From the NCBI GenBank assembly GCA_020441025.1, contig JAGRMX010000003.1, positions 1-33,100 of the forward strand: a DNA stretch of 33,100 nucleotides, written 5' to 3'. The notes beneath the pieces are model-generated. The model had not been told where the DNA came from. It saw only the letters and a list, made by a program, of their open reading frames with translations, and made no database searches. Below, in pieces: positions 6,032-24,348 of this stretch (position 1 is its first letter; each line of letters starts with the position of its first letter). The DNA is from Leptospiraceae bacterium (GTDB lineage Bacteria > Spirochaetota > Leptospiria > Leptospirales > Leptonemataceae). A program made the translations under genes and the position numbers.

Positions 6032-6904
6032 ATGGGTCACACTCATCACCGGACACTTTTCTCAATCGCGTTATCTGCCGTGTTGTTTTTCCCAGTCAAC
6101 GCCTGCATGACTACCGGCGAGAATTCGTCCGGCCATACCGCCAATCAACATGGAAGTCATTCTCCATCCGGCACCTTCAGCTACGAATATACAACCCAAA
6201 CGCTGGCCGCGCCGCCGGACAGAAATCTGGCGCTTGCGACCGGCAACGATCAATGCGAGGAGATCGGGCGCTCGCGAGTGGTGCGCTTGATTTACTTATT
6301 TCCGATCAATGAATTGGAAGAAAGCGATCTCGCCAACAGCGATTTGCCCGCGCGCCGGTATCGCACGGCCATTACACCCTGGGACGCCGTCTTTTCCCTG
6401 GCCGGCTTTTTATTCGGCGTTGTTACAGAAACTCAAATAGCGGAAGCATGCCACTCGGACGCGCTCCTGGCATTACGTCAGGATATACAAAACGATCAAG
6501 GAAGTAACGTCGGCGGTAAAACACAATCCCTGCCGGTTGTTTCGCTGGGCAATTCCGAAGAAGAACGCAACGCGCGTTCGCTCTTTTTTCAATTCAATTC
6601 CACCAACTTCGCGCAGGGAGAAGAAGAACGATTCAATCAAATGCTGCCCACCATCAGAAACGCGATTGCCGACGGGAAATCACTTTTGCTCATCGGTCAT
6701 TCCGATCCCTACGGAACCGAATCCGGCAATGAACGCTTGAGCGTCTGGCGCGCGAAACGTATTCGCGAAAAGCTGGTGGAACACGGACTGCCCGAAGAAC
6801 GCATCTATGTATTATCCGCCGGTGAAGAATGGTCCTATGCCGATTCCGCCAGGTCCCTCGATGAACGCGATCGCCGCGTGGAACTCATGATTGTGGAACG
6901 GTAA
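6032..6904 (+). CDS. OmpA-like peptidoglycan-binding lipoprotein
   Basis: This 290-residue envelope protein has a signal peptide ending in a lipobox-like PVNAC (Cys25), so it is probably an outer-membrane or periplasmic lipoprotein. The middle (about 73-145) contains CEEIGRSRVVRLIYLF and a glycine-rich hydrophobic segment ending TETQIAEAC, loosely reminiscent of Bor/Iss-type lipoproteins. That similarity is an inference. The C-terminus (about 180-288) is an OmpA-family domain: FFQFNSTNF, GHSDPYGTESGNERLS and RAKRI, then DERDRRVELMI. Asp225 and Arg240 match the residues that bind diaminopimelate in this family. The stop is 10 bp before the ATG of the first RCC1 lipoprotein, so the three genes may form an envelope operon. 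Confidence 0.85.
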   Translation: MGHTHHRTLFSIALSAVLFFPVNACMTTGENSSGHTANQHGSHSPSGTFSYEYTTQTLAAPPDRNLALATGNDQCEEIGRSRVVRLIYLFPINELEESDLANSDLPARRYRTAITPWDAVFSLAGFLFGVVTETQIAEACHSDALLALRQDIQNDQGSNVGGKTQSLPVVSLGNSEEERNARSLFFQFNSTNFAQGEEERFNQMLPTIRNAIADGKSLLLIGHSDPYGTESGNERLSVWRAKRIREKLVEHGLPEERIYVLSAGEEWSYADSARSLDERDRRVELMIVER

Positions 6905-6914
6905 GGGTCGAATT

Positions 6915-8369
6915 ATGAATAGTTTTCTCAAGCATAGCATGCAACGGCAATCATTCGATGCCGTGCCGAAGCTGCGCCTTTTAGAAAATCAATCCCGGCT
7001 TTTTCCCGCATCGGTGCACCGCACTCTGGTTGCAACTCTCGCCGGGGCCGCAATTGCGATCGGAAGTGCGCACTGCGGTATCGGCCACAATGCTCTCGGT
7101 ACGTTTAATGGCGCAGACGAAACGAATACCGACCTATCGCTTCTGACACTTCTACTTGCTGCGCCGCCAGCATCCGGTTCGTCGAGAACCACCAGCACAC
7201 AAATCGTGGCCGGGAGGGATCTTACCTGCTATTTATCGTCGGCAGGTACCGTGCACTGCTGGGGCCGGAGTGATCAGGGCCAACTGGGTTATGGAAACAC
7301 GAACGACATCGGGGATGATGAATTACCGGCTGCAGCCGGTACCGTCGATGTCGGCGGGAACGTCACGCAACTCACTGCCGGGGGCTCTTATGCGTGTGCC
7401 CTTCTGGATACGGGTTCCGTTCGATGCTGGGGCTACGGTATTCACGGCCGTCTGGGTTACGCAAACACGAATAACATCGGTGATGATGAAACACCGGCCT
7501 CCGCAGGCGATGTAAATGTCGGCGGGATCGTCACGCAAATTTCGGCCAGTAACATTCATACCTGCGCTCTTTTGAACACCGGCTCCGTTCGCTGCTGGGG
7601 CTACGGTGATTTCGGCCGCCTCGGCTATGCAAACACGAACAATATTGGCGACGATGAAACACCCGCTTCGGCGGGCGATGTGGATGTCGGCGGCACCGTA
7701 ATACAGATTGCTTCTGGTTTTCATCACACCTGTGCTCTGCTGGACACCGGCTCCGTGCGTTGCTGGGGTACCGGCACCAATGGCCAGCTGGGTTACGGAA
7801 ACACGAATCACATCGGTGACGATGAATCGCCAGCCACGGCGGGCGATGTAAATGTCGGCGGCACTGTTACACAGATTACCGCCGGGAGCAACTACACCTG
7901 TGCCCTTCTGAATACGGGTTCCGTTCGATGCTGGGGCCTGGGCACTTTCGGTCGGCTGGGTTACGCAAACACGAATAACATCGGTGATAATGAAGCACCC
8001 GCTACAGCAGGCAATGTCAACATCGGCGGCCTGGTTACACAAATTTCGGGCCGTTACACGCATACCTGTGCCCTTCTGGACAACGGTTCAGTACGCTGCT
8101 GGGGCTCAGGTTTTGTCGGCGCACTGGGCTACGGAAACACGAATAACATTGGTGATGATGAGATGCCGGCCACAGCAGGCGATGTGAACGTCGGCGGCCC
8201 CGTAACACAGGTTGCAACCGGCGAACACCATAACTGTGTCATTCTGAGCAATGGTTTCGTGCGTTGTTGGGGCCGGAGTCAATTTGGCCAGATGGGTTAT
8301 GGAGATACGAACATCATTGGCGATAACCCCGGCGAAATGCCGCCCGGAGATGTGCAGGTATTCGAGTGA
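6915..8369 (+). CDS. Seven-bladed RCC1-repeat lipoprotein, copy 1
   Basis: This is an exported protein of 484 residues. The start at ATG 6915 is supported by AAGGG about 8 nt upstream; a GTG at 6891 in frame would overlap the OmpA-like gene. The signal peptide ends in a lipobox-like GSAHC. The segment GIGHNALGTFNG and a Leu-rich SLLTLLLAAP follow. The rest is seven consecutive RCC1-type repeats of 56 residues (7197-8366). Each has the core C-x9-CWG, then GxLGYxNTNxIGDD and VNVGG. Seven RCC1 repeats normally close into one beta-propeller. Eukaryotic RCC1 is a nucleotide-exchange factor, but a lipidated secreted version is more likely a binding or adhesion scaffold. Two cysteines per blade suggest regular disulfides in an oxidising compartment. 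The next gene is a close paralogue. Confidence 0.87.
   Translation: MNSFLKHSMQRQSFDAVPKLRLLENQSRLFPASVHRTLVATLAGAAIAIGSAHCGIGHNALGTFNGADETNTDLSLLTLLLAAPPASGSSRTTSTQIVAGRDLTCYLSSAGTVHCWGRSDQGQLGYGNTNDIGDDELPAAAGTVDVGGNVTQLTAGGSYACALLDTGSVRCWGYGIHGRLGYANTNNIGDDETPASAGDVNVGGIVTQISASNIHTCALLNTGSVRCWGYGDFGRLGYANTNNIGDDETPASAGDVDVGGTVIQIASGFHHTCALLDTGSVRCWGTGTNGQLGYGNTNHIGDDESPATAGDVNVGGTVTQITAGSNYTCALLNTGSVRCWGLGTFGRLGYANTNNIGDNEAPATAGNVNIGGLVTQISGRYTHTCALLDNGSVRCWGSGFVGALGYGNTNNIGDDEMPATAGDVNVGGPVTQVATGEHHNCVILSNGFVRCWGRSQFGQMGYGDTNIIGDNPGEMPPGDVQVFE
7197..8366 (+). repeat. Exact-period 168-bp RCC1 coding repeats, array 1
   Basis: There are seven in-frame units. Units 1-6 are each exactly 168 bp (56 codons): unit 1 starts at the ACA codon at 7197 and unit 7 starts at the ACA codon at 8205. 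The last unit is 162 bp and ends at the stop codon. Unit identity is highest around GGNAACACGAAYAACATYGG and the Cys-Trp-Gly codons. The exact length conservation points to repeat amplification or homogenisation. Confidence 0.9.
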
Positions 8370-15353: not shown

Positions 15354-17183
15354 ATGTTTCGGGGTCGCACATATCTTCCGGTCATTATCCTGGTGTGGTC
15401 CGGCCTGGTTACAGCCTGTGAGTCTCGTTCAAACGTGCCCATCGAAAAGTGGGAGCACCGCCGCGCAGATCAGACCGAATTCACGACCATAAATCGTCCC
15501 TGGAATCCACCGAATCACCGGGGCACCGAGTTACATTTTTTTCAGGCGCGCTTACCCATTTTTGCATACACTGAGCCGTATCTATACCTGGAAAATGTGG
15601 ATGAAGTCTTTGAAGTGCGATTGAACGGCCGACCCATCTATCGGTCCGGTAACCCGGACAGCGCTCACTTTACCTATCCCGGCGCTCCCTGGCATCTGAT
15701 ACAATTGCAGAGCGCCCGACCGGGCGATTTGATCGAATTGCTTGTCCGGTCGGCCCATGTGAATCTGGGAGTACTGGGCGTTCCGGCCATCGTGTCTTAT
15801 AGAGAACATCTGGGGGCCATGTTTCGCACCGATGCGGATCGTATATTCGTTTCCAGTACGTTGCTATTCATTGGAATCTTTTTGATCGGGTTGGCATTGG
15901 CCATTCGACGTGAATACGCCGCCTTTTTGTATCTGGGATTGTTCTCCTGCTTGATGGGCACCTGGATTTTCGGTACGACGCATGTAAAACAACTGCTCTG
16001 GAACGCGCCTATTTTCTGGAAGTATATCGAATACACATCCCTGTATCTGATTCCGGTGGCCATTGCGGTTTTTTTGCAAAAGACCATACAGAGAAAATCG
16101 CGTAAATATTTACGATTCATAACTTTCAGTCATTTGCTGTTTACCATAGCGGCACTATCCCTGGCATTGACCGGCACGGTTCGCATTACGACCACTCTGC
16201 TGCCATTCAATTATCTGATGTTGTTCAGCATGATTACCTTTCTGGCTCTGTTGATTTATTGGAATAGAATGGGGGACCATGCGGCGCGCTATTTTTTATA
16301 CGGTTCCCTGTTTTTGATTATTTTCGCCGTGCACGATATTCTGGCCAATCTCGATTTAATCGCCTGGAACCGCGCCTTTTCCCACTGGGGCGCTCTGGCT
16401 TTTACCATCAGTCTGTCGGTATTGCTGGTGCGCGAAATACAGAATACCCGCGTGCGCTTACGTGAAGTGAATACGGAGCTTGCTCTGGCGCGCGATATTC
16501 AACAATCTTTACTGCCCGCATCGCCGGCCCATACCGCCGGAATACGCGTGCATGTTCTGTACAATCCGGCTCAGGAAGTCGGTGGCGATTATTACGATTT
16601 CGCGCCCAGCGATGAACATCGACTGGGTGTGTTAATTGCCGATGTAACCGGACACGGATTATCCGCGGCTCTGATTGCCAATATGATGCGGGTTTCATTT
16701 TCAGCGGCCGTACAACACGACTCGCAACCGGAACGAGTTCTGGAGGGCATGAACAAAATTCTGTACGGACAATGTGGTAACCAGTTCATCTCCGCCGGTT
16801 ATATTCTATTCGATCAGGTGGATCAGACGGCCATGGCCGGCATTGCCGGACACCCGGCTCCGATATTAATTCGCAACGGACAGGTTCGGGAGCTACAATT
16901 ACGTGGACCTGTGCTGGGATGGCAACGCAATATCCGGATTCAGGCCGAGCGCATACCGATACAGAGCGGCGATCGCTTTTTTTGTTTTACCGACGGCGCC
17001 ATTGAAGTGCGCAACAATGCCGGGCAAATTTTCGGCTATGACCGCTTTTTTGAGCTGGTAGCGAAAGAACATCATAAAGCGCCGGCGGATTTCATTCAGG
17101 GCATTCTGGTGGAAATTTTCGGCTGGCATGGTTCACGCAACCTGGAGGATGACATTACTTTCGTGGTGGTGGACGTGGCCTGA
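15354..17183 (+). CDS. Lipobox-bearing membrane receptor with SpoIIE/PP2C phosphatase output
   Basis: This 609-residue protein has a signal ending in a lipobox-like LVTAC (Cys22). A beta-sandwich-like extracytoplasmic domain spans about 40-160 (VDEVFEVRLNGRPIYRSGN), and a multi-helix membrane block of 7TMR-DISM type about 165-365. A short coiled linker (LREVNTELALARDIQQSLLP) joins a SpoIIE-type phosphatase. Metal-binding and catalytic motifs are intact: GGDYYD (410-415), ADVTGHG (Asp430), GHPAP, FTDG (Asp547) and DDIT (about 599-602). Such enzymes dephosphorylate STAS anti-sigma antagonists, releasing them to sequester anti-sigma kinases. A STAS protein is encoded at 31668-32003 and is a possible substrate, but no RsbW-like kinase is in the window. 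The gene diverges from the hybrid kinase across 240-270 bp. Confidence 0.9.
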   Translation: MFRGRTYLPVIILVWSGLVTACESRSNVPIEKWEHRRADQTEFTTINRPWNPPNHRGTELHFFQARLPIFAYTEPYLYLENVDEVFEVRLNGRPIYRSGNPDSAHFTYPGAPWHLIQLQSARPGDLIELLVRSAHVNLGVLGVPAIVSYREHLGAMFRTDADRIFVSSTLLFIGIFLIGLALAIRREYAAFLYLGLFSCLMGTWIFGTTHVKQLLWNAPIFWKYIEYTSLYLIPVAIAVFLQKTIQRKSRKYLRFITFSHLLFTIAALSLALTGTVRITTTLLPFNYLMLFSMITFLALLIYWNRMGDHAARYFLYGSLFLIIFAVHDILANLDLIAWNRAFSHWGALAFTISLSVLLVREIQNTRVRLREVNTELALARDIQQSLLPASPAHTAGIRVHVLYNPAQEVGGDYYDFAPSDEHRLGVLIADVTGHGLSAALIANMMRVSFSAAVQHDSQPERVLEGMNKILYGQCGNQFISAGYILFDQVDQTAMAGIAGHPAPILIRNGQVRELQLRGPVLGWQRNIRIQAERIPIQSGDRFFCFTDGAIEVRNNAGQIFGYDRFFELVAKEHHKAPADFIQGILVEIFGWHGSRNLEDDITFVVVDVA

Positions 17184-17358
17184 ATTACCGCGGCCATCAA
17201 ATAATCGCATGATTTCGGCTTGATGACAACTTATAAATCCACTGAACCCGGCTACGGTCCGGACGTCTAATTATCCGACCGGCAAAAACAACCCCGTGGC
17301 ACGATGTTGTACTTGCCATCGCGTACGCCTCCGGCATCATTTGAATTCGCAATCCGCT

Positions 17359-18288
17359 ATGAAAAAATTAATTTCTTCATTTACACAGAATATCAAGCGC
17401 TCTTCACCGCTATCGCTCTGGCCCGTGCTGGCAATGGGCATGCTGCTGATAGGGAATCTATCCGTACCTGCCGGTTTACAGGCCCGGCGCAGTCGTTGTG
17501 CGGCTCTAATGCGTGACGATTTAAAGCGTACCTGCTACGAGAATGAATTTCAAGAACGAGAAAGAGAGCGGGAACGCTACTATGAAAGAATATTTCGCGA
17601 ACTGACCGAGACCGATAAGTTGGCCTTCCGGGACAATATGGTCATGTGGAAAGACCATCGGGATTATATGTGTGAGTGGAGCGCGTCGCTGGAGAACGAC
17701 GCCGCAAAGCCGGAAGAAACCGTGGCCTACCATGAATGTCGCTTATCCATGACCGACGAACGTATAGCCTATATTCGGCGGGCCTTCGGACGCGAAGGCG
17801 TCGGCGCCGGACGGGCCGGTTTGTATGAGGACGGTTATGGCGGTCGTCTGGAGTTAAAGGCATTACCGACCACGGAAGGTGAAGAGCTGTATTCGTATGA
17901 TCTGACGGTAGTGCGCGGTCCGACCGCCCATCTGGGTGAAATTCACGGGCGCGTACAATGGAAAGCCGCCACGGTCGAATCAAATAGTTGCGATTGGGAT
18001 GAAACCGAAGCGGAAGACACGACCGAATCCGAAGATACGCATGTGGATACGCGCGAAGCCATGGATGATCACATCAACTCGGATGCCAACGACACGGAAA
18101 CGGAATCCACAAATGATCATATGGATGAAGCGGAAGAGTCGGAAGATTTTGATGAAAGCATGACAGACTGTTGCACTCTAACGTTCCAGCTTGCTCCATA
18201 TATAATCAAACTGGAAGAATCGGATGGATGCCAGATGTTTCACGGAGCCCGGGCTTACTTTGACGGCACGTACCGCAAGGTGAACTGA
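17359..18288 (+). CDS. Secreted LprI-like protein with acidic insert
   Basis: This 309-residue exported protein starts at ATG 17359, which gives a clean MKK-type signal peptide cleaved near GLQA; a GTG at 17296 is in frame but adds an unlikely His/Arg-rich lead. Residues about 50-145 resemble the LprI/DUF1311 fold: paired Cys, YYERIFRELTETDKLAFRDN, MWKDHRDYMCEW and YHECRLSMTDERIAYI. In that family the domain can inhibit lysozyme. A second domain follows (GEIHGRVQW, later CCTLTFQLAPY and MFHGARAYFDGTYRKV). It is interrupted at about 215-270 by a stretch rich in Asp, Glu, Thr and Ser (DETEAEDTTESEDTH and similar). The insert looks like a disordered, possibly cation-binding linker. No partner genes are adjacent. 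Family assignment is from pattern, not alignment. Confidence 0.72.
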   Translation: MKKLISSFTQNIKRSSPLSLWPVLAMGMLLIGNLSVPAGLQARRSRCAALMRDDLKRTCYENEFQERERERERYYERIFRELTETDKLAFRDNMVMWKDHRDYMCEWSASLENDAAKPEETVAYHECRLSMTDERIAYIRRAFGREGVGAGRAGLYEDGYGGRLELKALPTTEGEELYSYDLTVVRGPTAHLGEIHGRVQWKAATVESNSCDWDETEAEDTTESEDTHVDTREAMDDHINSDANDTETESTNDHMDEAEESEDFDESMTDCCTLTFQLAPYIIKLEESDGCQMFHGARAYFDGTYRKVN

Positions 18289-18836: not shown

Positions 18837-19140
18837 AGGTAACCTCTTTATGGGATGATAAAAATTGAATTCCCCCCGATCCAATTATCAATGACAGTCT
18901 AACATGCAAGCGTTAAGATGAGCAAGAATTTTGTATGATTTTTTACGGACATGCATGTACGCCCGTACCCGTTACCTTTCCCATAAAAACGGAATAAAAA
19001 GCCGAATGCTTAGTACATATGGCGATTTTCGCGGCTAACACGCCAAAATCTAATGCAAATTTACCCTGGATTTTGCACTCACAGGGATATGGCCCGCACC
19101 GATCGCGTATACTATCATAGAAGGAATTTCAGAAGGATAC
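18837..19140. other. Divergent intergenic region upstream of the ECF operon
   Basis: This 304-bp spacer must carry the promoter of the ECF sigma operon and that of the hypothetical protein. A TATACT (19108-19113) is placed like a -10 element 28 bp before the sigma ATG, but no good -35 lies at the right distance. A palindrome ACATGCATGT is at 18949-18958. On the minus strand TTGCTC and TAGACT are 18 bp apart, upstream of the 18836 start, and form a weak promoter candidate. No reading frame of interest is present. Confidence 0.4.
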
Positions 19141-19743
19141 ATGCAGGATCTTCTGTCGGAACTGATTCAGGGCAATACCGGTGCCTGGAAGCGCTTTCAA
19201 GAGCGCTACGCAGCCGTGATTTACGACGCGGTGCGCAAGACTTTTATGAAGTACGACCCCGGATCTCTGGAACAGACCGAGGATGTGGTTCAGAATGTTT
19301 TTCTACGCCTGGTTCAGAAGGATTACAACAGCTTGCGGCGGTACGATTCCAGTAAGAGTTCACCGACCACGTTTTTGTATGTAATCGCCCGTAACACTAC
19401 AATCGATTTTCTACGGCGCAAACAGCCGGAACATCCGGTCGATCTGGACTTAATTCCGGAGATACCGGCGCCGCCGGATAACCCGGAAGAATTCGGACTG
19501 GAAGATTTGCCCACGGAGATTTTAACGCCCCGACAGCGATTGGTTTTACATTTGTTGTATGATCGCCATTTAAACATAGCGGAAACCGCTCGATTCATGG
19601 GCGTCAAAGAACAAACCGTACGTAGCGCCAAGCACAAGGCGGTGCAATCGCTGCGAAGACACTATCGACAGGCCGAAGATCAATCGGCGGAATCCGGAGA
19701 TCCCGACACCTGGAAGGAGACGAATGATCTGGTTGTGGACTGA
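19141..19743 (+). CDS. ECF-type RNA polymerase sigma factor
   Basis: This is a 200-residue extracytoplasmic-function sigma factor. Region 2 (about 20-93) contains EDVVQNVFLRLVQ for core binding and -10 recognition and TFLYVIARNTTIDFLRR. Region 4 (about 128-175) contains LTPRQRLVLHLLYDRHLNIAETARFMGVKEQTVRSAKHKA, a -35-binding helix-turn-helix. Region 3 is absent, as usual for the class. The ATG at 19141 has AAGGA just upstream. It is followed by a zinc anti-sigma and a periplasmic sensor-like protein, so it is expected to be held inactive until an envelope signal releases it. The C-terminal tail after region 4 (about 25 residues) is acidic and probably disordered. Confidence 0.92.
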   Translation: MQDLLSELIQGNTGAWKRFQERYAAVIYDAVRKTFMKYDPGSLEQTEDVVQNVFLRLVQKDYNSLRRYDSSKSSPTTFLYVIARNTTIDFLRRKQPEHPVDLDLIPEIPAPPDNPEEFGLEDLPTEILTPRQRLVLHLLYDRHLNIAETARFMGVKEQTVRSAKHKAVQSLRRHYRQAEDQSAESGDPDTWKETNDLVVD

Positions 19744-19786
19744 ACACCTGGCAGACGGCTGGAATTCAACATGGGAGCTATGCGTA

Positions 19787-20296
19787 ATGACAGATCAAGA
19801 TAAACTAAATCAGAGCAATGCGACCCTCTGGCGGATCTATAACAAAGAATTCCCGGCAGTACGGACGCCCTGCCCATCAGAGGAGCTTCTGGCGGCTTAT
19901 CTGCACGCCGGGCTGGAAGAACGACAACATGCATTACTGGAATATCATCTCACACACTGCGTAGCCTGCCAGAGCCTGGTGCGGGACGCCAGGCATGACA
20001 CGCTCGTTAAAAATGATGCTCCGAGAGTACAATCCGAACGAAAGCTCAACGCGATTAAATGGCCGTTCGTACACAATCGTCAGGGTGTATCCGGTCTGCC
20101 CTGGTGGCAGGCGGCCGCGGCGGTTGTATTACTCACCGGCATCAGTCTGGTCGGATATATGGCCGGATACAACACTTCCAGCAATCAGGCTCATCAAAGA
20201 CGGGCAGTCAATGATATGATTCTGCCGCATACGCATATGGCCGTGCATGCCATTAACGCGACCGGAAATATTCAGGAGACCGATTATGAAGAATAA
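19787..20296 (+). CDS. Membrane-anchored zinc anti-sigma factor (ZAS type)
   Basis: This 169-residue protein begins at ATG 19787, with GGGAG about 9 nt upstream; a longer in-frame start at 19724 overlaps the sigma gene. The cytoplasmic N-terminal domain has the zinc anti-sigma signature H-x3-C-x2-C (His54, Cys58, Cys61 in EYHLTHCVACQ), after a helix SEELLAAYLHAGL. One transmembrane helix lies at about 106-127 (WWQAAAAVVLLTGISLVGYM), followed by a 40-residue periplasmic tail with several His and Met residues. It should bind and silence the upstream ECF sigma. The stop overlaps the next gene's start by 11 bp, implying coupled translation of anti-sigma and sensor. Confidence 0.87.
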   Translation: MTDQDKLNQSNATLWRIYNKEFPAVRTPCPSEELLAAYLHAGLEERQHALLEYHLTHCVACQSLVRDARHDTLVKNDAPRVQSERKLNAIKWPFVHNRQGVSGLPWWQAAAAVVLLTGISLVGYMAGYNTSSNQAHQRRAVNDMILPHTHMAVHAINATGNIQETDYEE

Positions 20297-20726
20297 ACTG
20301 CTGTATCTGCTGCTGTTCGTATCACTGGCATTTAATGTTTTCTTCGCTATCGGCTATCTACGATCCCACAGCCGATCGGAACAGGTCCACTCCATCGAAG
20401 GGCGAGTAGCGTTATTACGAGCCGAATTACAATTGACCGCGGAACAGGAATCCATATTAAAACAGAGCCAGGAACAATTGCAGAATGATCTGGCGCAATT
20501 CAATGGTCGGGTGGCATCGCGCCGCACCCGATATCTGGAACAGATGAACGGTCAGTTTGATACTCAAAAGTACAATCGTTTTGTTCAGGAAACCGAGGCG
20601 GATCTATTGCTGTTTCGTCGGCAGGCCGCGCAAAACAGCACGCGCTTTCTGGAATCTTTAACCGCGGAACAAAAAGAGGCGTTGTTGCGTCTCAGTAACG
20701 GCGACTCGGTTTTTCAATTGTTTTAA
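20286..20726 (+). CDS. Periplasmic heavy-metal-sensor / Spy-CnrX-like protein
   Basis: This is a 146-residue protein starting at ATG 20286, with AGGAG at a good distance upstream inside the anti-sigma gene. One N-terminal signal-anchor helix (about 5-25) is followed by a long, almost all-helical periplasmic domain with two LTAEQ motifs (about 50-60 and 126-135), hallmark of the Spy/CpxP/CnrX heavy-metal-resistance superfamily. In CnrYXH-type systems the equivalent protein senses metal and controls the anti-sigma. The domain lacks the histidine-rich metal site of classic CnrX (almost no His after residue 36), so the signal may be envelope stress and not a metal. It is the third gene of the operon and ends 12 bp before a convergent gene. 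Confidence 0.8.
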   Translation: MKNKLLYLLLFVSLAFNVFFAIGYLRSHSRSEQVHSIEGRVALLRAELQLTAEQESILKQSQEQLQNDLAQFNGRVASRRTRYLEQMNGQFDTQKYNRFVQETEADLLLFRRQAAQNSTRFLESLTAEQKEALLRLSNGDSVFQLF

Positions 20727-20738
20727 TGGCCGGCAGCA

Positions 20739-21608
20739 TCAGTGTCCGGCAATGTACTTCGTTAAGGTTACATCAACCGAACCTACCAGCGGGACCGCCG
20801 CGCTGACTTTTAAGGGCCAGCGATTTTCATCGGCGGAAATCCACACAATCACATCGCCCTTGGCCCGTTGAAACATTCCGGTGGTGTTTAAGAAAGGTTG
20901 AATGCGCCAGGCCGAAATTGTGCGCTCGGTCTCGTTGACCTCCAGAGTCAATTCTTCCTTTTGATGGATGTGCATCTTTAATTCGGTCAGCTTTAACTCA
21001 TCGTATACATCCAGAATGAACGATTGACCCGCCCGGGCCTGCTCGGAATGGGTACGGGCGAAATACACCGCCGAGAGCATGTCCTGAAACTGATCGGGCA
21101 GCATCCAGGTAGTGCCGCTGCGTTCTTCCCATACCGCCTGCCTTTGCGGCCCGCCGGTTTTGCCCCGGGGGCGATTGCCCGAGTAACGCTTTTCATACCA
21201 GTGGGCCTGTCCGACGGCATAGTCGAACGCAACCCGATAAAATCGAAAATAATTGCCTTCCCGTAAGTTCTTCTCATTCCACATGGTTCGTCGGCGTACC
21301 GGGTCCCAGTGGCTGGTGATTACATCCTTTACCGGGAAAAAAGCCGAGATCCAGGCCGCGCTTTCCGCAGTGGAACGCAACACCAGACAATCGACACCCG
21401 AGCGTTGTGTGCGTCCGGCCACTTCCATGGTAGCCGTGCCGGAGTACACCCCGCCCACATCAATATCATAAATAAACTTTTCACCAATCTTCAACGGAGT
21501 GGCCGAAAGCGACTCCGATAACGCTATGAACGGCAGCAAACACGGCACCACAAATCGGAGCCATTTACGCCGCGGCGATTGATGATTGTAAGATTTGCAT
21601 TTTTGCAT
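20739..21608 (-). CDS. DUF3108-family exported protein
   Basis: This 289-residue protein has an N-terminal signal peptide (WLRFVVPCLLPFIALSESLSA). The mature part is beta-rich: LKIGEKFIYDIDVGGVYSGTATMEV at the start, then SAFFPVKDVITSHWDP, and near the end GDVIVWISADENRWPLKVSAAVPLVGSVDVTL. This order (KIGEKLxYxI, phase of SxFFPVxD, then WlSdDerrxPvkxxxkxxiGsvxaxL) is typical of DUF3108, a periplasmic family of unknown role. The ATG at 21608 lacks a strong Shine-Dalgarno. The C-terminal end faces the ECF operon across only 12 bp, so the two transcripts converge. Confidence 0.8.
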   Translation of the reverse strand: MQKCKSYNHQSPRRKWLRFVVPCLLPFIALSESLSATPLKIGEKFIYDIDVGGVYSGTATMEVAGRTQRSGVDCLVLRSTAESAAWISAFFPVKDVITSHWDPVRRRTMWNEKNLREGNYFRFYRVAFDYAVGQAHWYEKRYSGNRPRGKTGGPQRQAVWEERSGTTWMLPDQFQDMLSAVYFARTHSEQARAGQSFILDVYDELKLTELKMHIHQKEELTLEVNETERTISAWRIQPFLNTTGMFQRAKGDVIVWISADENRWPLKVSAAVPLVGSVDVTLTKYIAGH

Positions 21609-22048: not shown

Positions 22049-22708
22049 ATGAAAGCAACAATCAACGGCGCTCCCTCATTTTGTTTCGTTCACATTGATC
22101 TGGAACCGGGCGAAACCATTATCGCCGAATCGGATGCCATGGCCAGTATGGATGCCGAAATCGCCATGGAGACCAAATTTAACGGCGGATTTTTCTCGGG
22201 GCTGTTAAAAAAATTTCTCGGGGGCGAGTCATTATTCGTAAATCATTTTACCAATAAAAGCGACCGAGCCCGGCGCGTAACGGTAGTACAACCTACTCCG
22301 GGTGAAATTCGACAGATCGACCTGAATGGCCAGGCGCTCTGTCTGCAACCGGGGGCGTACGTAGCTTCGACACCCGGTGTAAAACTGGGCCTTAAATGGG
22401 CCGGGCTGGCTTCCTTCATAGCGCGAGAAGGCCTGTTTAAGCTGGAAGTCTCCGGTAGTGGAACCGTGTGGTACGGAGCGTACGGCGGACTGGTGGAGAA
22501 AGAAGTCGATGGCGCTTATATTGTGGATACGGCGCACCTGGTGGCTTATGATCCGCAAATGAAACTAAAAGCGCAGTTAGCCGGCGGAATCCTGTCCAGC
22601 TTCTTCGGCGGCGAGGGTCTGGTTACCAGAGTAGAAGGTAAGGGTCGCATTGTAATGCAATCGCGTAGTCTGAGCGGATTGGCCGGTTGGGTCAACCCAC
22701 GATTATAG
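22049..22708 (+). CDS. AIM24-family protein, paralogue 1
   Basis: This 219-residue, beta-rich protein belongs to the AIM24/TIGR00266 family. Typical segments are LEPGETIIAESDAMASMD near the start, GGESLFVNHFTN (about 58-69), PGEIRQIDL, a VDGAYIVDTAHLVAYD strand and GGEGLVTRVEGKGRIVMQSRS near the end. The family forms pseudo-symmetric beta-helix barrels. Yeast Aim24 is needed for mitochondrial inner-membrane organisation, but the bacterial role is unknown. No signal peptide or transmembrane helix is visible. The ATG has AGGAA 8 nt upstream and a structured leader. Two more paralogues follow on the same strand. This copy has GGGFFSGLLKKFLGG-type hydrophobic residues in the loop where copy 3 is shorter. 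Confidence 0.87.
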   Translation: MKATINGAPSFCFVHIDLEPGETIIAESDAMASMDAEIAMETKFNGGFFSGLLKKFLGGESLFVNHFTNKSDRARRVTVVQPTPGEIRQIDLNGQALCLQPGAYVASTPGVKLGLKWAGLASFIAREGLFKLEVSGSGTVWYGAYGGLVEKEVDGAYIVDTAHLVAYDPQMKLKAQLAGGILSSFFGGEGLVTRVEGKGRIVMQSRSLSGLAGWVNPRL

Positions 22709-22871
22709 GCTCCGTGCATTCATGAATCGGCGTATACGATGGGAATACGTTCCAGTCGAATCGCGTTGAGAAATTAAGGAAACGCAAATATCCAGACGTA
22801 AGTCTTAATACGAAAGCATTCAAACACAGGCATACACAAGTACAGAATACAGGACAGCACGCAAATTTACG

Positions 22872-22907
22872 CAGGAACTCATTGCAGAATTCATTCAGGA
22901 ACTCATT
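22872..22907 (+). repeat. Triplicated 12-bp ribosome-binding-site repeat
   Basis: Three abutting 12-bp units, CAGGAACTCATT, GCAGAATTCATT and CAGGAACTCATT, end exactly at the base before the AIM24 copy 2 ATG (22908). Units 1 and 3 are identical and each carries an AGGA Shine-Dalgarno core. Only the last copy is correctly spaced from the ATG. Confidence 0.85.
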
Positions 22908-23591
22908 ATGGAAGTAAAGATTGAACACAGTCCCGGCAACGCCACCGCCCGCCTGGCTCTGAGCGCCGGCGAAACGGTTACGGCGGAAGCGGGCGTAATG
23001 ATTGCCATGAGCGGCAACATTAACATTGAAACCACCACGCACAAGAAAGGCCAGGGCGGCGTGCTTAAAGCATTGAAACGCATGCTGTCGGGTGAGTCTT
23101 TCTTTTTGAATCACTTCACCGCCAACGGCGGTCCCGGAGAAGTCGTAGTGGCCCCTACACTTGCCGGCGATTTAATGAGCTATGAACTGAAAGGCGAAAC
23201 TCTGGTTGTGCAGAGCGGTTCTTTCCTGGCCAGCGAACATTCGGTGAATATGGATATGGGCTGGCAGGGCTTTAAATCCATGTTTTCGGGCGAAAGCATG
23301 TTCTGGCTCAAGATGAGCGGCAGTGGAAAAATTGTGCTGAGTTCATTCGGCGCGATTTATCCCATTGAAGTGGACGGCGCCGTGATAGTGGATACCGGAC
23401 ACATTGTGGCCTTTCATGAATCGCTGAAATTTTCCGTTAAAAAAGCCGGAACCAGTTTAATCGGTTCGTTTCTGGGCGGGGAAGGATTGGTCACACGTTT
23501 CGAAGGCAAGGGTACGGTCTGGTGCCAATCGCATAACGCGGGCAACTTCGGATCTTCGCTGACGCCGCACCTGCGCCCGCGTCAGGGTTGA
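22908..23591 (+). CDS. AIM24-family protein, paralogue 2
   Basis: This 227-residue paralogue has the same family landmarks: LSAGETVTAEAGVMIAMSG, LSGESFFLNHFTANG, a central SGSGKIVLSSFG, VDGAVIVDTGHIVAF and GGEGLVTRFEGKGTVWCQS. It begins 199 bp after copy 1. The spacer is AT-rich without a recognised gene and ends in three 12-bp repeats carrying the ribosome-binding site. The N-terminus (MEVKIEHSPGNATARL) lacks the longer lead of copy 3. Copies 2 and 3 share SGESLF/SGESMF motifs, whereas copy 1 has GGESLF. No catalytic residues are known for the family. A cytoplasmic scaffold or membrane-associated role is only inference. The unusually conserved triplet order suggests hetero-oligomers. Confidence 0.87.
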   Translation: MEVKIEHSPGNATARLALSAGETVTAEAGVMIAMSGNINIETTTHKKGQGGVLKALKRMLSGESFFLNHFTANGGPGEVVVAPTLAGDLMSYELKGETLVVQSGSFLASEHSVNMDMGWQGFKSMFSGESMFWLKMSGSGKIVLSSFGAIYPIEVDGAVIVDTGHIVAFHESLKFSVKKAGTSLIGSFLGGEGLVTRFEGKGTVWCQSHNAGNFGSSLTPHLRPRQG

Positions 23592-23658
23592 ATCAAATTT
23601 AAGAACTGAATTAAACTTAAAAAGATATATTTTCTATTTCGTACCGAGGATCGCAATC

Positions 23659-24348
23659 ATGGACAAAACCCGATCAGACTTCCAATACAAAATGTTATGC
23701 CAGCCGGATTACAGCATGATCAACGTGCGCATTCCTTCCGGGCAGACCCTGAAGGTGGAAGCGTCATCCATGGCCAGCATGGACACCTGCGTGAAGATGA
23801 AGACCAAATTCAAGGGTGGTTTCAGTCGATTTCTGACCGGCGAATCTTTGTTCGTAAATGAATTCACCGCCGAGGGATCGGACGGAGAATTAAATATTGC
23901 TCCGGGAGCGCCGGGTGATATGGAACATGTGTACCTCGAAGGCAACGACGTAATTTATCTGCAAAACTCGGCCTGGGTGGCGTCCGGTACGGGTGTGAAT
24001 CTCGAAACCAAATGGCAGGGTATGATAAAAGGCTTCTTCTCCGGCGAATCGTTGTTCTTGATTAAGTGCAGCGGACAGGGCGACCTATGGTTTAACACAT
24101 ATGGCGCCATGATTGAGGTCGATGTGGACGGCGATTATGTTGTTGATACCGGCTACATTGTGGCTTTTACGGAAGGACTGAACTATAACGTAACCCGGGT
24201 AGGCGGTTATAAGTCGCTGTTTCTCTCGGGCGAGGGATTGACCTGTAAATTCACCGGCAAAGGGAAACTGTGGATTCAAACCCGCCAGATGCCGGCCTTC
24301 GCTTCCTGGGTGCAGGTATTTCGGCCGGTGCAGCGCAACAGTTCGTAA
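23659..24348 (+). CDS. AIM24-family protein, paralogue 3
   Basis: This is a 229-residue paralogue and the last of the triplet. Landmarks: IPSGQTLKVEASSMASMDTCVKMKTKF, LTGESLFVNEFTAEG, PGDMEHVYLEGNDVIYL, FSGESLFLIKCSGQGDLWF, VDGDYVVDTGYIVAFTEGL and LSGEGLTCKFTGKGKLWIQTRQ. The ATG at 23659 is preceded by GAGGATC at a suitable distance. Gap to copy 2 is 67 bp without a terminator, so copies 2 and 3 at least are likely co-transcribed. The N-terminal motif MASMD is shared with copy 1, placing copies 1 and 3 closer to each other there. Role unknown. Confidence 0.88.
   Translation: MDKTRSDFQYKMLCQPDYSMINVRIPSGQTLKVEASSMASMDTCVKMKTKFKGGFSRFLTGESLFVNEFTAEGSDGELNIAPGAPGDMEHVYLEGNDVIYLQNSAWVASGTGVNLETKWQGMIKGFFSGESLFLIKCSGQGDLWFNTYGAMIEVDVDGDYVVDTGYIVAFTEGLNYNVTRVGGYKSLFLSGEGLTCKFTGKGKLWIQTRQMPAFASWVQVFRPVQRNSS

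Follow-up and report, generated by a model that had tools for sequence, protein, structure and literature searches.

How might an ECF sigma factor be controlled through a CnrX-like sensor that seems to lack the metal ligands of CnrX? This question is raised by an operon of three plus-strand genes in a Leptospiraceae bacterium. The stretch of DNA analyzed here, termed the window, is 33,100 nucleotides long and forms one entire contig (JAGRMX010000003.1) of a draft genome (GCA_020441025.1; 743 contigs, ~68% complete). A preliminary description, made from the sequence alone, had read the operon as an ECF sigma factor, a zinc-type anti-sigma factor and a sensor of the Spy/CnrX fold. Family searches return the same domains in the same order, with part of the Pfam matches falling below cut-off (Table 1). 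The combination of an ECF sigma, a membrane anti-sigma and a CnrX-fold sensor is of a known kind.

Table 1. Positions in the window of the operon's genes and of the features within and ahead of them.
Feature	Positions	Strand	Basis
Intergenic region, presumed promoter of the sigma gene	18885..19140	+	GC 0.41 vs 0.51 in the operon
ECF sigma factor, 200 aa, regions 2 and 4 only	19141..19743	+	Pfam and NCBIfam
ZAS-type membrane anti-sigma factor, 169 aa	19787..20296	+	zf-HC2 below cut-off; one hydrophobic helix; directly after the sigma gene
CHCC codons: C29 (19871-19873), H54 (19946-19948), C58 (19958-19960), C61 (19967-19969)	19871..19969	+	
Anti-sigma transmembrane helix	20111..20167	+	Hydropathy peak at residues 130-148 (190-aa numbering)
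42-aa tail of the anti-sigma, predicted to be periplasmic, containing H136, H148, H150, H154 and M151	20168..20293	+	Sequence, hydropathy
Sensor ribosome-binding site, CAGGAG	20273..20278	+	Ahead of ATG 20286
Spy/CnrX-fold sensor, 146 aa, N-terminal anchor or signal peptide	20286..20726	+	Weak LTXXQ and Metal_resist matches, model, Foldseek
Sensor N-terminal hydrophobic segment, cleaved signal peptide or membrane anchor	20289..20360	+	Hydropathy; model helix 2-30, low confidence
First LTxxQ motif, residues 50-54	20433..20447	+	Alignments A1 and A2
Second LTxxQ motif, residues 125-129	20658..20672	+	Alignments A1 and A2; Q129 invariant in A1

The sigma factor matches Pfam Sigma70_r2 (E 2.6e-12) and Sigma70_r4 (E 1.5e-11), both above cut-off, and the NCBIfam sigma70-ECF superfamily model TIGR02937 at 74.8 bits (cut-off 42.9). 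The match of the anti-sigma to Pfam zf-HC2 (E 0.0021, 18.6 bits) lies under the cut-off of 22.2, its best match in 60 relatives has an E-value of 0.0017, and its structure model is unusable at a pLDDT of 39. An alternative in-frame start, ATG 19724, gives a protein of 190 aa and a 20-bp overlap with the sigma gene; the numbering used here begins at ATG 19787. Inspection of the protein confirms the previously reported ZAS motif (H54-x3-C58-x2-C61) and reveals what had been missed, namely that C29 supplies a fourth zinc ligand and that the periplasmic tail contains four His (136, 148, 150 and 154). C29 precedes H54 by 25 residues, which agrees in spacing with the CHCC type as defined in PMC4960319, that is, a Cys or His 23-26 residues ahead of HxxxCxxC. 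The sensor gene begins at an ATG inside the anti-sigma gene, with the 11-bp overlap already described.

The sensor itself matches two Pfam families, each under cut-off: LTXXQ (E 6.6e-4, 20.8 bits, cut-off 24.3) and Metal_resist (E 2.1e-3, 18.7 bits, cut-off 29.2). Its single-sequence model (pLDDT 74) shows four helices, at residues 37-48, 52-87, 93-124 and 127-139, in the Spy/CnrX layout. Two LTxxQ motifs lie within this modeled four-helix hairpin, as is characteristic of the Spy/CpxP/ZraP family. A Foldseek comparison of the model with the PDB returned CnrX chains as the five best matches (probability 0.98-1.00), the first of them with a probability of 1.00 and a TM-score to the target of 0.68; NccX followed at rank 13, ZraP at rank 17 and CpxP at rank 19, and no match fell at E < 0.001. 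A second structural aligner scored Spy at Z 9.3 and CnrX at Z 9.1, with unrelated or designed helix bundles reaching 10.8; a shared fold by itself thus lends support without being decisive. By sequence alone, phmmer recovered no related protein from the PDB. Queried against 100 genomes, the sensor gave only weak matches, the best of them beyond its own genome at E 1.3e-4, and on plasmids six weak ones. A profile of 34 sequences, which combined the window's sensor with 33 of the 49 other ECF-linked sensors listed, matches Spy, CpxP and ZraP at E 2e-13 to 3e-8; its match to a Salmonella VirG-like protein is better still (E 6e-15). The same profile matches NccX at E 0.015, and CnrX is absent from the best 60 of its 81 matches up to E 10. 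The window sensor thus resembles Spy, CpxP and ZraP in its two LTxxQ motifs, its four-helix layout and the matches of the ECF-linked profile. It differs from them in being encoded with an ECF sigma and an anti-sigma, in a possible uncleaved anchor and in the net charge of its domain, which is 0.

We take the metal ligands of CnrX to be H42, H46, E63, H119 and M123. The CnrX reference sequence, from plasmid pMOL28, carries H, H, E, H and M at these positions, and M123 is also given as a ligand in PMC7689651. Three alignment modes agree in setting V41, R45, Q62, N117 and F121 of the window sensor opposite these five residues. As a positive control, all five ligands are kept in six of six CnrX relatives encoded on Sphingomonadales plasmids (31-38% identity to CnrX), which were chosen by hand from 79 plasmid records matching CnrX. 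The register is least certain in the first helix, where structural alignments begin with offsets of 4 to 6 residues; none of these offsets places H28 or H35 on H42 or H46, provided that no gap follows the start. With five ligands replaced and all six controls intact, the alignments firmly indicate that the CnrX metal site is missing from the window sensor. The preliminary description had held classic nickel/cobalt sensing to be unlikely for a protein with almost no His in its periplasmic domain, and had named conserved CnrX ligands as the result that would tell against it. None of the five is conserved, and past the hydrophobic stretch the sensor has two His (H28 and H35), no Cys and one Met; the claim stands.

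To place this absence in context, we searched 100 genomes of the phylum, the window's own included, for Metal_resist matches at E 0.01 or better and read their neighbors. The survey used 98 rows, 97 with a readable ORF, and dropped five more in which the match lay within an ORF of 315-1837 aa. A sensor was called linked where an ECF gene lay within 700 bp on the same strand. Because this threshold missed the window's own sensor, diverged sensors are undercounted; the window's genome yielded only a match on contig C15. That protein (L090, positions 5670-6020 of C15, minus strand) has eight His past its hydrophobic segment, and no same-strand ECF gene was found on its 8.9-kb contig. ECF linkage was observed for 52 of the 97 other sensors, or 53 of 98 with the window's, which amounts in raw counts to 53 modules in 47 genomes; of the 45 unlinked sensors, three lie 884-1107 bp from an ECF gene. 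Among the 52 other linked sensors, ten have one of the three His of CnrX (nine in one alignment mode), and no sensor has two or more. None of the 45 unlinked sensors has any, although tolerating a one-column shift gives three of them a single His. With no linked sensor keeping more than one such His, the ECF-linked sensors surveyed in this phylum generally lack the CnrX site, and the window's is no exception.

The linked modules show two gene orders: 46 of the 53 have the sensor ahead of the sigma, and the remaining seven, the window's included, run sigma, membrane protein, sensor. An ORF immediately follows the sigma gene in 50 of 53 modules, and 47 of these 50 ORFs encode proteins of 80-250 aa with a hydrophobic helix, which are likely anti-sigma factors. 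The motif HxxxCxxC occurs in seven of the 50, the window's among them, three of CHCC and four of HHCC type. Only five of the post-sigma ORFs of sensor-first loci carry a zinc motif; another sigma-first module, that of genome G070, also has a CHCC membrane protein. At 46 loci, then, a Spy-like sensor and an ECF sigma, mostly with a short membrane protein next, form a recurrent module of the phylum. The window operon shares these parts with the sensor-first modules and differs from them in having its sensor gene last. One locus with the window's gene order, L096 (G008:C1, 3513-4938), comes from a genome of the same family and encodes a sigma, a membrane protein with no zinc motif and a Spy-like sensor; the latter resembles the window sensor in its N-terminal hydrophobic segment and likewise lacks every CnrX ligand, and identity to the window is low.

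The sigma factor has no close relative in the 391 other genomes of a 392-genome draw from the phylum. Matches at E 1e-7 or better occur in 11 other genomes of the 392, the best (45 bits, 39% across residues 41-172) in genome G057, where the matching sigma adjoins a Metal_resist protein. A contig scan of named genomes yielded no ortholog, only eight loci at 25-32% identity; on plasmids 151 records matched, and the 30 listed, at 28-31% identity, likewise include no ortholog. Searches of the phylum's genomes with the operon's proteins found no orthologous operon for a comparison of conservation. We placed the sigma in a tree of 83 rows. The 47 sensor-first sigmas in this tree comprise those of the 46 loci and of one locus with a weak sensor; L031 was labeled sensor-linked by hand on the basis of a weak Spy-like ORF upstream. 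Thirty-nine of the 47 form one clade (100/100), four CnrH-type sigmas form their own (100/100), and five of seven sigma-first sigmas form a third (92/92). The window sigma sits outside all three on a long branch with no supported position. A pairing with the long-branch sigma L172, seen at 91/82 in a tree of 64 rows where long branches met, is absent from the 83-row tree. An ECF phylogeny that grouped the sigma with a different regulator type would have contradicted the preliminary description; in the tree obtained, the sigma is not firmly placed with any type. The tree suggests that different sigmas likely recruited Spy-like sensors more than once.

We favor, with a probability of roughly 0.5, a reading of the operon as an envelope-stress switch in which a Spy-like sensor would gate a zinc-binding membrane anti-sigma, possibly with a second input through thiols. 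The gene anatomy, the domains, the missing CnrX ligands and the recurrence in the phylum of modules with sensor, sigma and membrane protein are observed; the binding, topology, signal, autoregulation and targets of this switch are inferred. The ECF sigma would be held inactive at the inner membrane by the single-pass anti-sigma, with a cytoplasmic anti-sigma domain that would bind zinc at its CHCC motif. On the periplasmic side, the tail of this protein would contact the Spy/CnrX-fold sensor, itself anchored in, or secreted across, that membrane. A signal would alter this contact such that the sigma is released, and the freed sigma would then switch on its own operon and further targets. A sensor that has the Spy/CpxP layout and both LTxxQ motifs but no CnrX site would most likely respond to unfolded protein or another disturbance of the envelope, not to nickel or cobalt. 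The CHCC site may provide a cytoplasmic thiol or redox input or may be purely structural. Several observations weigh against this reading: the Pfam matches of anti-sigma and sensor fall short of their thresholds, the sensor model is of limited quality and designed helix bundles score as well, the sensor domain carries no net charge, family scans recognized no chaperone or envelope-repair gene next to the operon, and the anti-sigma tail is rich in His.

A described counterpart of such a switch is the CnrX-CnrY-CnrH relay (PMC7689651). Like the CnrYXH operons of Cupriavidus metallidurans and the Sphingomonadales, the window operon joins a sigma, a membrane anti-sigma and a periplasmic four-helix sensor, and CnrX is the nearest solved structure to the sensor model by Foldseek. 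One could thus regard the operon as a nickel/cobalt system of CnrYXH type with a diverged sensor, given that its components are of the same three kinds and that the sensor fold is shared. We consider this very improbable. All five ligands are absent from the window sensor, though six chosen relatives keep them at only 31-38% identity; the window anti-sigma is of the zinc-finger kind, unlike the class II CnrY; and the sigma falls outside the CnrH clade, albeit on a long branch. Gene order differs as well. The preliminary description had seen in it a parallel to CnrH, CnrY and CnrX, and here it was mistaken: the window runs sigma, anti-sigma, sensor, whereas the order in C. metallidurans is cnrY-cnrX-cnrH, and in all six Sphingomonadales plasmid relatives a small gene annotated "hypothetical protein" likewise stands ahead of sensor and sigma. 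No efflux genes were recognized among the window proteins scanned, in contrast to the CnrYXH operons examined here, which adjoin cnrCBAT or copper genes. The best reading is that the switch works like CnrYXH without being a member of it and answers to something other than metal at the CnrX site. A metal could also act elsewhere, since the His-rich tail of the anti-sigma leaves room for a metal signal. The run H148-x-H150-M151-x2-H154, together with H136, is a possible metal-binding element, and a novel type of periplasmic metal sensor might bind metal there, perhaps with the help of H28 and H35 in the juxtamembrane stretch of the sensor. The 42-aa tail holds four His and one Met, compared with 0-2 His in the tails of the six other sigma-first modules, and the whole anti-sigma, at 5.9% His, ranks highest among the 27 window ORFs taken as genes. 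We nonetheless judge such a sensor unlikely: so small a cluster could be chance, no relative was found that shows its conservation, and family scans of 25 of the 27 window proteins, several of them without any family match, recognized no metal resistance gene.

Two further explanations would shift the signal, or the sensor's role, away from the periplasm or from sensing. In one, the operon is mainly a cytoplasmic redox switch: the CHCC site is oxidized as in RsrA, zinc leaves, the sigma is freed, and the Spy-like protein serves as output or modulator. Like RsrA, the window anti-sigma has all CHCC ligands, including the N-terminal Cys that the redox response of RsrA requires according to PMC4960319, and the 169-aa form contains exactly three Cys, each a residue of the motif. 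The earlier remark that a ZAS motif can respond to redox is, in view of the CHCC type, somewhat stronger than first stated. Its force is reduced in that the authors of PMC4960319 describe the link between CHCC and redox as confounded by another study. Unlike RsrA, moreover, the window anti-sigma spans the membrane and has a periplasmic tail, and according to PMC7406223 a zinc motif, possibly of structural role, is carried by ~48% of the class I anti-sigmas that are bound to the membrane. The overlapping sensor gene also argues for a periplasmic input, and we find a mainly cytoplasmic switch quite unlikely. The other explanation treats the sensor as a target only, a Spy-like periplasmic chaperone under control of the sigma with no role in sensing. 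Spy and CpxP are themselves regulon members of envelope stress systems, and the window sensor gene is last in its operon. Yet its start inside the anti-sigma gene suggests synthesis coupled to that of the regulator, and the sensor gene stands ahead of the sigma in 46 of the 53 linked modules, which leads us to regard a sensor without sensing as improbable.

Among the literature matches listed, we found no description of a Spy-type ECF sensor free of a metal site, nor of sigma-first order combined with a CHCC membrane anti-sigma and such a sensor; either may exist in print. The operon of Azospirillum brasilense RpoE8 comes near: by order of locus tags it comprises a sigma, a hypothetical protein and a "periplasmic heavy metal sensor" (PMC12826043), an order that the window shares when the two are compared by description only. 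All three of its genes are up on overexpression of RpoE6, and the portion of that source available to us gives no signal. It is conceivable, though doubtful, that the window operon belongs to a class of ECF switches that is widespread and, to judge from these searches, undescribed. In this class a chaperone-like, metal-site-free protein of Spy fold would report stress to a membrane anti-sigma; in the window operon the anti-sigma would add a cytoplasmic CHCC thiol switch, and one protein would integrate periplasmic protein damage with cytoplasmic oxidation. The plasmid records examined here name such sensors "periplasmic heavy metal sensor". Should ECF-linked sensors in fact detect unfolded protein or other envelope damage, a common type of sigma switch would have been misinterpreted. 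The operon is small and its three parts are clear, such that the candidate inputs (periplasmic sensor, CHCC site and His tail) are separable by point changes.

The surroundings of the operon were inspected for further indications of its control and function. A scan of 18880-20800 for sigma-70-like promoters gave two sites, as against 2.5 in shuffled sequence. Bipartite motifs common to the operon's upstream region and 21 other upstream regions of the window were not above chance (nine shared motifs observed, a resampling mean of 6.2, and 41 of 200 resamplings as high). The sigma's own promoter motif, which the preliminary description had proposed to seek upstream of 19141, was therefore not recovered above chance within the window. 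Recent horizontal transfer of the operon was considered and set aside, as its GC content equals that of the window (0.509 vs 0.508) and so offers no compositional sign of it. Family scans of the window's proteins recognized no chaperone or envelope-repair gene adjoining the operon. The gene downstream, on the opposite strand, encodes a DUF3108 protein, and no metal efflux or oxidase gene lies directly downstream. Several other loci of the window were noted. Upstream of the operon and on its strand, 15354-17183 encodes a fusion of a 7TMR-DISM receptor with a SpoIIE phosphatase (Pfam). The locus 17296-18288 encodes a protein with a long Glu/Asp/Thr-rich stretch and a weak match, just under cut-off, to the LprI lysozyme inhibitor. 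A cluster of AIM24/TIGR00266-like proteins occupies 22049-24348, where family scans identify 22049-22708 and 23659-24348, and the protein of 22908-23591 appears by eye to be a further one. Finally, 6891-8369 encodes an RCC1-repeat protein in which Pfam RCC1_2 matches seven repeats.
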